Shown here piece by piece: positions 33,761-36,015 of a DNA stretch of 64,000 nucleotides. Position 1 is the stretch's first letter. Each line of letters opens with the position of its first letter. The notes under the pieces are model-generated. The model saw only the letters and a program-made list of their open reading frames with translations, made no database searches and was not told the DNA's origin. This stretch comes from a candidate division WOR-3 bacterium. Lineage in GTDB: Bacteria; Hydrothermota; Hydrothermia; UBA1063. Position numbers and translations under genes: made by a program. Location: the NCBI GenBank assembly GCA_039803545.1, contig JBDRYS010000001.1, forward strand, positions 127,866-191,865, read 5' to 3'.

Positions 33761-34537
33761 CTAAAGGATGTAAGGAATGAGTGCCTTTCTATTTTCAGGA
33801 TATGTGGGAAAATTCTCTTTGTACCATTTGTGGTTTGCTAATGCCCTTGGTGCAAGGTTTGCAAAGGTCCATAATGCAAAGGATAGTCCCGCCAAACTCC
33901 AGGTAGCGATTGCCCACCCAGTCCATTCTAAAATTTCTCCGAGGTAGTTGGGAGAGGATACGAAATTAAAAATCCCCCCTTCAGGAATTTTATACCCATT
34001 TTCGCCGTTTCTTCTAAGGTTTATCAACTTTGAGTCAGAGGTGTAGTGAAGAAGGAAACCCGTTATAAATAAGATCACGCCGATGATAAAGCGGGGATCT
34101 CCCACCCAGATTGGGCTGTATTTTTTGATATGGGTAATGGAAATCATATTGATGAGGCTATTTACAGTATTAAAGAAAAATCCCATTGCGACGATAGAAA
34201 GCGGGATATCCTTTTTTGAGTGCAATTTAAAGGGAAAAAGAAGAGACCGATAAAAATAGTGCATGATCCATAATGTAGCAAAGATAATCCGGGGATTTCG
34301 GCTTAGGTAGGCTCGATATTTAAAGAAATATAAGACGGGTATCAACAAGGAAGGAATTTCCATAAGAATCCAACCAATTTTGTTTGAGAGGAGAGGACCC
34401 CAGCCCTTCCTTGCATGCCTCCCGTAAGGTGCTGTGATCTTGAGCAACGAGAGGAAGATAACAATGGAAAAACCAATCCAGCACCACACAAAGATGTTAA
34501 AGATATCCGTGTTCCTTAAACCATTTATATGTATCAT
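33761..34537 (-). CDS. membrane protein of the steroid 5-alpha-reductase C-terminal / DUF1295 family
   Basis: A 258-residue integral membrane protein with about six hydrophobic segments. The C-terminal block SPNYLGEILEWTGWAIATW and the terminal KWYKENFPTYPENRKALIPYI match 3-oxo-5-alpha-steroid 4-dehydrogenase C-terminal domains, which bind NADPH and reduce enone double bonds of steroids or polyprenols. The related isoprenylcysteine methyltransferases share this fold, so the reaction is uncertain. ATG 34537 has GGAG seven bases upstream and overlaps the preceding epimerase gene by 41 bases. GTG 34489 is an alternative start. Confidence 0.75.
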   Translation of the reverse strand: MIHINGLRNTDIFNIFVWCWIGFSIVIFLSLLKITAPYGRHARKGWGPLLSNKIGWILMEIPSLLIPVLYFFKYRAYLSRNPRIIFATLWIMHYFYRSLLFPFKLHSKKDIPLSIVAMGFFFNTVNSLINMISITHIKKYSPIWVGDPRFIIGVILFITGFLLHYTSDSKLINLRRNGENGYKIPEGGIFNFVSSPNYLGEILEWTGWAIATWSLAGLSFALWTFANLAPRALANHKWYKENFPTYPENRKALIPYIL

Positions 34538-35465
34538 TTAAAGTCTCCACGATTGGTCTTGGTTTGTAATTTAAATCTTTTTCTGCTTTTTCCCGAGATA
34601 TTGGACTTTTCCAGCTTAAGGCTTTCAAGGCCTCGGGAGTAAATAAAGGTCGAAATTTGAATATCTTACTTAATGGCAAAAGAATACTTGCCCCAATTTG
34701 TGCCCATTTTAATGGGAAAACCACTTTAGGACACCTTACCTTTGATATTTCACACCAGAGTTCAGAGAGTCTTGAAACTTCTAAGTATATTCCTGACAAG
34801 ATATAAATGCCGTCTCCATTTGTAAGCGCCTTTGACACCGCCTCTGCAACATCCCTGGGATCCACCCAGTCAAAGCCCCCTTCAACTAAGGCAGGAACTC
34901 GTTTCTTAGAAAGGGAAATGAGAAACCGGCCCATTAAGGAGGGTTTGTAATCGTAAGGTCCAATGAGGGCTGTAGGACACAAGATAACTGCGTTTAGCCC
35001 CTCTGTTATCGCATCCTGTACGAGCTTTATCCCTTCTGCTTTTGAAATGTCATAGATTGAACCTGTACCGTCGACTAAAGGAGAATTTTCATTGACAGGT
35101 CTACCTTCATCCCTGAAGGCGTGAATGGATCCAATATATATAAGCCTTTCAACGTTATTCGCTTTCACTGCCTCGATAACATTCTTTGTCCCAACTACAT
35201 TTGTTTCCCATACCAATTCTTTATCGAAACTTGTTATACTGATATGGGCAGCGGAGTGGATAACAGCAAAAGCACCCTTAAAAGCGTTTAGGAGCTCGTT
35301 TTTATTCAGTAAATCTGCTTTTACGACTTCGCAGGGAAGATTTGCGACGCCTCTTGTATCACTTTTAACTACAGCTCTTACTCTATATCCCTTTTCAAGA
35401 AGGTTACGCACAATATTTGCGCCAAGGTGTCCTGATGCACCAGTAACAACCGCTAATTTACTAAT
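34497..35465 (-). CDS. NAD-dependent epimerase/dehydratase (3-beta-HSD/HpnA-like SDR), probable AUU start
   Basis: A 322-residue extended SDR. The coenzyme loop VVTGASGHLGANIV lies at residues 6-19, and YDISKAEG near residue 139 holds the catalytic Tyr and Lys. No ATG, GTG or TTG precedes the coenzyme loop in frame. The only plausible initiator is ATT at 35465, six bases after a perfect AGGAGGAGG; the first conventional start (GTG 35411) would remove the whole NAD-binding glycine motif. Relatives act on steroids, sugar nucleotides or dihydroflavonols. The 41-base overlap with a 5-alpha-reductase-like gene suggests a shared lipid substrate, which is inference. Confidence 0.8.
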   Translation of the reverse strand: MSKLAVVTGASGHLGANIVRNLLEKGYRVRAVVKSDTRGVANLPCEVVKADLLNKNELLNAFKGAFAVIHSAAHISITSFDKELVWETNVVGTKNVIEAVKANNVERLIYIGSIHAFRDEGRPVNENSPLVDGTGSIYDISKAEGIKLVQDAITEGLNAVILCPTALIGPYDYKPSLMGRFLISLSKKRVPALVEGGFDWVDPRDVAEAVSKALTNGDGIYILSGIYLEVSRLSELWCEISKVRCPKVVFPLKWAQIGASILLPLSKIFKFRPLFTPEALKALSWKSPISREKAEKDLNYKPRPIVETLNDTYKWFKEHGYL

Positions 35466-35610
35466 AAAACGCCTCCTCCTTTTTAAAAATTTTAAAGGAT
35501 ATTTGCAATCTAAGCAAAGGCTCTAACCCTGAGCGTGATGGACTTGACTTTCCGACCTAAAGATGCAACAATTATTTCAAAAATGAATTTGTTTTAAAAG
35601 GAGGTTTTTT

Positions 35611-36015
35611 ATGAAGATTGAATTTACAGATGAACCCTTAACTCACGTGCCAGAAAGGGATAATCAGCATAGAAGGTTGGTAGAATTGGTCAACAAAATA
35701 TCTGAGCTCTTGAAGGCTGGCGATACCAAGAGCGCAATGGAAGTTCTCGCAAAAGAATTGAAGGATTATGTGGATACCCATTTTGAGGCAGAAGAGAAAT
35801 TTATGGAAAGTATAGGGTTTCCAAAGTTAGAGTCCCATAAAAAAATACACGAAGCCTTTAGGAAGCAAGTTTATGAGTATGTGGAATCGTTGAAAGAGGG
35901 CGACATTGATGCCTTTAATGAAGCCCTCTCCGTCACATGGTCCTGGTTATTCAACCATATTGGCACCGTCGATAAAGATTATGGGATATTTGCTAAGGAA
36001 AAAGGGCTAATATAA
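35611..36015 (+). CDS. bacteriohemerythrin
   Basis: A 134-residue single-domain hemerythrin. The full di-iron ligand set is visible: His20, His57, Glu61, His76, His80, His116 and Asp121 (H-x3-E, H-x3-H and H-x4-D patterns). It binds oxygen reversibly in a four-helix bundle and, in anaerobes and microaerophiles, is thought to store, deliver or scavenge oxygen. The ATG has AAAAGGAGG upstream. It is transcribed alone, ending at the terminator at 36042-36070. The gap 35466-35610 carries a possible TTGACT-type -35 box but no convincing -10. Confidence 0.93.
   Translation: MKIEFTDEPLTHVPERDNQHRRLVELVNKISELLKAGDTKSAMEVLAKELKDYVDTHFEAEEKFMESIGFPKLESHKKIHEAFRKQVYEYVESLKEGDIDAFNEALSVTWSWLFNHIGTVDKDYGIFAKEKGLI

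Follow-up and report, generated by a model that had tools for sequence, protein, structure and literature searches.

A gene for an extended SDR enzyme in the stretch of DNA analysed here (64,000 nucleotides from a candidate division WOR-3 bacterium, hereafter the window) is almost certainly translated from an AUU codon and not from AUG, to judge from its sequence. The initial annotation had proposed AUU as the probable start, and this is now strongly supported by the anatomy of the initiation region and by its conservation in three species. We consider it likely that this codon is a deliberately weak start behind a strong Shine-Dalgarno (SD) sequence, with selection capping the output of the gene and with a probable sensitivity to IF3, and that the same holds for infC, tatD, murJ and a SpoIID-like gene of this genus. 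Features of the region are listed in Table 1.

Table 1. The SDR gene, its initiation region and its neighbours (positions in the window).
Feature	Position	Strand	Remarks
Steroid 5-alpha-reductase-like gene, downstream	33761..34537	-	PF02544, 178 bits; 41-nt overlap with the end of the SDR gene
SDR CDS	34497..35465	-	Extended SDR, NAD-dependent epimerase/3-beta-HSD-like, 322 aa, almost certainly ATT-initiated; open frame, Pfam match, alignment with the orthologues of the two sister species begins at residue 1 or 2
GTG, first conventional in-frame start	35409..35411	-	GTA in both sister species, hence not the start
NAD-binding motif VVTGASGHLG	35421..35450	-	Requires a start upstream of GTG 35411
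ATT (AUU) start codon	35463..35465	-	Right SD spacing; ATT in 3/3 species having the gene
SD-ATT spacer CGTTTT	35466..35471	-	CGTCTT in both sister species; conservation unusual
Shine-Dalgarno AGGAGGAGG	35472..35480	-	GGAGG core ends 6 nt before ATT; matches 16S 3' end CACCTCCTTT
Upstream in-frame TAG	35523..35525	-	No canonical start from there to GTG 35411
Hemerythrin gene, divergent	35611..36015	+	Upstream neighbour of the SDR gene

The SDR product matches the Pfam models PF01370 (Epimerase; 118 bits with a cut-off of 20.9, residues 6-218) and PF01073 (3Beta_HSD; 72 bits), and the Rossmann TGxxGxxG loop together with the score above the cut-off places it among the extended SDR/NAD-dependent epimerases (PF01370). 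The nearest named NCBI families are HpnA and SdmB. With 205 bits against a cut-off of 367.65 for the hopanoid-associated epimerase HpnA (TIGR03466) and 167.5 bits against 600 for the sterol demethylase protein SdmB (NF052578), the SDR is a relative of both families and a member of neither. Within 33761-35465 of the minus strand, the gene for this 3-beta-HSD-like SDR and the steroid 5-alpha-reductase-like gene thus overlap each other. The DNA match to a second genome of the genus (G001) covers both the SDR and the PF02544 gene, and in a third (G002) each of the two genes is matched, on two contigs.

On the minus strand, the start region consists of AGGAGGAGG, a 6-nt spacer and ATT, and reads ...AAAAAGGAGGAGGCGTTTT ATT AGT AAA TTA GCG GTT GTT ACT GGT GCA TCA GGA CAC CTT GGC GCA AAT ATT GTG...; the frame is open from ATT to the stop codon at 34497-34499. 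The initial annotation had stated that the NAD-binding motif is encoded upstream of GTG 35411, that no ATG, GTG or TTG precedes this codon in frame, and that ATT 35465 stands six bases after an SD. All three observations are borne out: the GTG already encodes the last residue, V, of VVTGASGHLGANIV; in-frame ATG, GTG and TTG are absent back to the TAG at 35525-35523; and six bases separate ATT from the nearest GGAGG. Initiation at GTG 35411 would use a conventional start codon and yield an N-terminally truncated SDR, but since this codon encodes the last V of the motif, both beta-1 and the GxxGxxG loop would be deleted; moreover, no SD precedes it and both sister species have GTA at this position, so that we give this reading practically no credence. 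Gene finders assume ATG, GTG or TTG, and genes of this kind are therefore truncated or missed; here truncation would remove the NAD-binding loop.

Recoding mechanisms are known, and translation might begin in another frame, or further upstream, and enter the SDR frame by readthrough or frameshifting. This is very improbable: ATG, GTG and TTG are absent in every frame between the SD and the beginning of the motif in all three species (in the window, over an interval that begins 42 nt upstream of ATT and ends 15 nt downstream of it), and the upstream in-frame stops lie at distances that differ from species to species. The upstream neighbour is divergent, so there is no co-directional ORF just upstream, which rules out readthrough of a preceding gene's stop as the source. 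As marks of a genuine AUU start we considered an SD 5-9 nt before the codon, the lack of any in-frame ATG, GTG or TTG from the upstream stop to the conserved N-terminus, and conservation of the codon among orthologues. In each of the three species that have the gene GGAGG lies 6 nt before the codon, no in-frame conventional start occurs in that interval, and the codon is ATT. One detail counts against the reading that we prefer: the longest SD match in the window, AAGGAGG, is 9 nt from ATT, and the 6-nt distance applies only to the second GGAGG.

The SDR orthologues of the two other species of the genus, G001 (locus L002) and G002 (L003), share 70% and 72% protein identity with the window's product. 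A check of sister genomes had been proposed in the initial annotation. In both, the codon corresponding to the window's start is ATT and is preceded by GGAGGCGTCTT; the frame is closed by stops 6 and 9 codons upstream, and there is no canonical start. The three upstream regions align poorly up to the SD, where GGAGGCGTYTTATTAG is nearly invariant. An ATG misread as ATT, which the initial annotation had named as the finding that would overturn its proposal, takes only a single-base change, and the assemblies are drafts, but the identical codon in two other, independent genomes and the same pattern in four further genes effectively exclude a sequencing or assembly error. Third-base identity at fourfold sites between these genomes is 0.32-0.39, which is nearly saturated, and the shared ATT is thus not due to recent ancestry. 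Outside the genus, all 28 distant relatives with a placeable start (about 26-44% identity) begin conventionally, at ATG or in a few cases GTG or TTG, near alignment residue 2-4, roughly two codons further downstream. The AUU state is therefore derived in this lineage, with the initiation point almost unchanged, and AUU is not required by the enzyme, a point that also counts against the reading that we prefer.

The spacer (CGTYTT, 35466-35471 in the window) is kept in the three species, whereas spacers usually drift, and no RNA structure accounts for its conservation. A search for a regulatory RNA hairpin over the SD and start gave no support for one, with z values of single folds from -1.9 to +0.95 and a compensatory change in no pair among the three sequences.

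The SDR gene is one of several in the genus with such a start. We surveyed 840 kb (about half) of genome G000, comprising 736 predicted genes, and for genes lacking an SD-supported canonical start collected any in-frame codon that precedes the first canonical one and has SD spacing, irrespective of codon identity. ATT or ATA accounted for five of the 50 codons collected, namely those of the SDR gene, infC, tatD (ATA), murJ and a SpoIID-like gene. A codon-blind orthologue screen of about 2000 pairs, in which a shared SD and the absence of ATG, GTG and TTG from the stop to +12 codons were required, returned the same five as credible families, with ATT or ATA in every species examined. An earlier, looser version of this screen flagged too many genes, since SD bases align. 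Three further matches were judged to be artefacts (one has a weak SD, and the other two genes are truncated at the end of a stretch or contig), and apparent swaps of a canonical start for ATT or ATA in orthologues proved to be alignment artefacts, namely internal codons or cases with a real ATG beside the codon. As a control for the single-genome survey, 200 kb of E. coli gave no candidate with the same stringency; at a laxer SD threshold infC was recovered among many chance matches and pcnB was missed, which shows that the sensitivity of this survey is limited.

All four species start infC with ATT and tatD with ATA. The murJ start is never ATG: G000 and G002 have ATT, G001 and G003 have ATA. 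In the SpoIID-like gene the start is ATA in G001 and G003, and either ATT or ATA in G000 and G002. Overall, none of the 19 gene-by-species start observations in the five families is ATG, GTG or TTG, at a saturated fourfold-site identity of 0.31-0.39, while ordinary ATG starts are still ATG in 88-93% of orthologue pairs. The identities of tatD, murJ and the SpoIID-like gene were verified against Pfam.

Several details of these loci were recorded. In all four species the ATA of tatD follows GGAGG (G000:C1:85102-85872, minus strand, L145; also L146, L147 and L148), and in G000 the gene has no in-frame ATG, GTG or TTG over its first 149 codons. Among the murJ loci (G000:C1:641696-643201, plus strand; L160-L164), the match in G002 (G002:C4:18273-19778, L161) contains one in-frame TAG, which is either an error or a sign of a broken copy; in G004, from another genus, GGAGG is followed at the corresponding position by an ACG codon, and no canonical start lies close to it. 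The SpoIID-like protein (G000:C1:80594-81595, minus strand; L152-L155) has a signal-peptide-like N-terminus.

Known systems offer several parallels. In E. coli, infC and pcnB have AUU starts with low or IF3-controlled translation, and repression by IF3 is proven for infC. The SDR gene resembles these two in its AUU start, and infC of this genus likewise starts with ATT; it differs in coding for an SDR enzyme, known from sequence, whereas infC encodes the regulator itself. The statement in the initial annotation that AUU starts are established mainly for infC and very few other genes is somewhat dated, such starts being documented in S. aureus, Listeria and E. coli pcnB and present in at least three further non-infC genes of this genus. 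The SDR gene adds a case to those already documented outside infC, and the genus-wide set is more interesting than the single gene. Our literature queries returned no report of conserved AUU/AUA starts in murJ, tatD or a SpoIID-like gene, although they did not name these genes and the absence is thus unproven.

The documented S. aureus starts are those of cvfC1 (AUU), ccpN (AUA), citZ (AUA) and infC (AUA), and AUU/AUA reporters yield about 10% of AUG output there (PMC13009471). Both there and here a single organism has a handful of conserved AUU/AUA starts, all of them preceded by a strong SD; the genes are different, however, extended start-proximal SD pairing is absent here, and the S. aureus starts were mapped by Ribo-Ret and reporters, those of this genus by comparative sequence only. 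In Listeria, non-canonical starts are fixed in 6 of 2265 conserved genes, for example infC (ATT) and rnhC (ATC), and reporters rank ATG > ATA > ATT (PMC13068326). Here too rare starts are fixed by lineage in a few core genes, although in different ones, and the proportion of five in 736 predicted genes is somewhat higher but was obtained by a different method. Streptomyces sigR starts with GTC and is repressed by IF3 (PMC5472188). It shares with the SDR gene a conserved non-canonical start proposed to hold the protein low, but its start is GUC and not AUU, it encodes a sigma factor, and the effect of IF3, proven for sigR, is an analogy for the SDR gene.

We found the translation machinery to be conventional. 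An initiator-type tRNA is present, whose anticodon stem contains three G-C pairs and whose first acceptor pair is mismatched, the 16S 3' end bears the ordinary anti-SD CACCTCC, and IF3 is intact and near solved bacterial IF3s. An abnormal initiator tRNA or anti-SD was rejected on these grounds, and reassignment of AUA to Met is ruled out, since internal AUA codons of G000 align mostly with Ile codons (70%; 1.7% with ATG). Ordinary fMet-tRNA acting at AUU with the aid of a strong SD is the simplest mechanism, there being no sign of an altered code or a specialised initiator. In the scheme that we propose, fMet-tRNA would initiate the SDR at AUU, guided by the strong SD at optimal spacing, and selection would keep this codon weak, which would hold output to a fraction of the AUG level. 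Since AUU is rejected by IF3, SDR output would, by analogy with infC, increase when there is little IF3 per 30S subunit. The same scheme would extend to infC, tatD, murJ and the SpoIID-like gene of the genus.

The retention of AUU or AUA in the SDR gene and at least four others suggests that the genus purposely retains weak starts, and from the conservation at saturation and the AUU/AUA reporters measured in other bacteria we infer that the SDR start is selectively kept weak. AUU might also be a neutral start that a strong SD makes good enough, with neither selection for weakness nor regulation. The SD is indeed strong, and AUU/AUA starts are seemingly tolerated in several genes of the genus, but an unconstrained start would be expected to have moved to ATG by the time divergence is saturated, ATG accounting for 85% of SD-supported starts here, and ATA is a single transition away from ATG, yet no conventional start appears among the 19 observations. 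Neutrality therefore seems quite unlikely to us: the interchange of ATT and ATA without ATG argues that selection keeps the start weak.

Held through saturated divergence, the AUU/AUA set can be regarded as a natural experiment, one that suggests that weak initiation is selected for. On the analogy with infC, IF3 control of the SDR gene is plausible. The wider idea that infC, SDR, tatD, murJ and the SpoIID-like gene, with their selected AUU/AUA starts, form an IF3-sensitive translational regulon in this genus is tentative and rather unlikely; if it were true, IF3 or ribosome status would co-control cell-envelope and lipid-type genes. With these conserved starts, the idea of such a gene set lends itself to a direct reporter test.

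The habit of starting at AUU or AUA may reach beyond the genus. When the single-genome screen was applied to 400 kb (375 genes) from a sister family as a control, it returned one ATA candidate, an LPG_synthase_TM gene whose apparent ATA start follows GGAGG (G005:C27:224406; L219:4406-5299). Within the genus, a possible further ATT start lies at G003:C24:17548 and in G001:C1 (L201, L111), in the context GGAGGAxGAGCTATTTTAG with the protein ILAKLLxLL...; its ATT overlaps the stop of the preceding gene and its SD doubles as coding sequence of that gene, which makes the evidence weaker. Finally, a gene at G000:C1:63757-65382 (minus strand) starts right after a stop while its G001 orthologue extends upstream, which probably reflects a premature stop or frameshift in G000.
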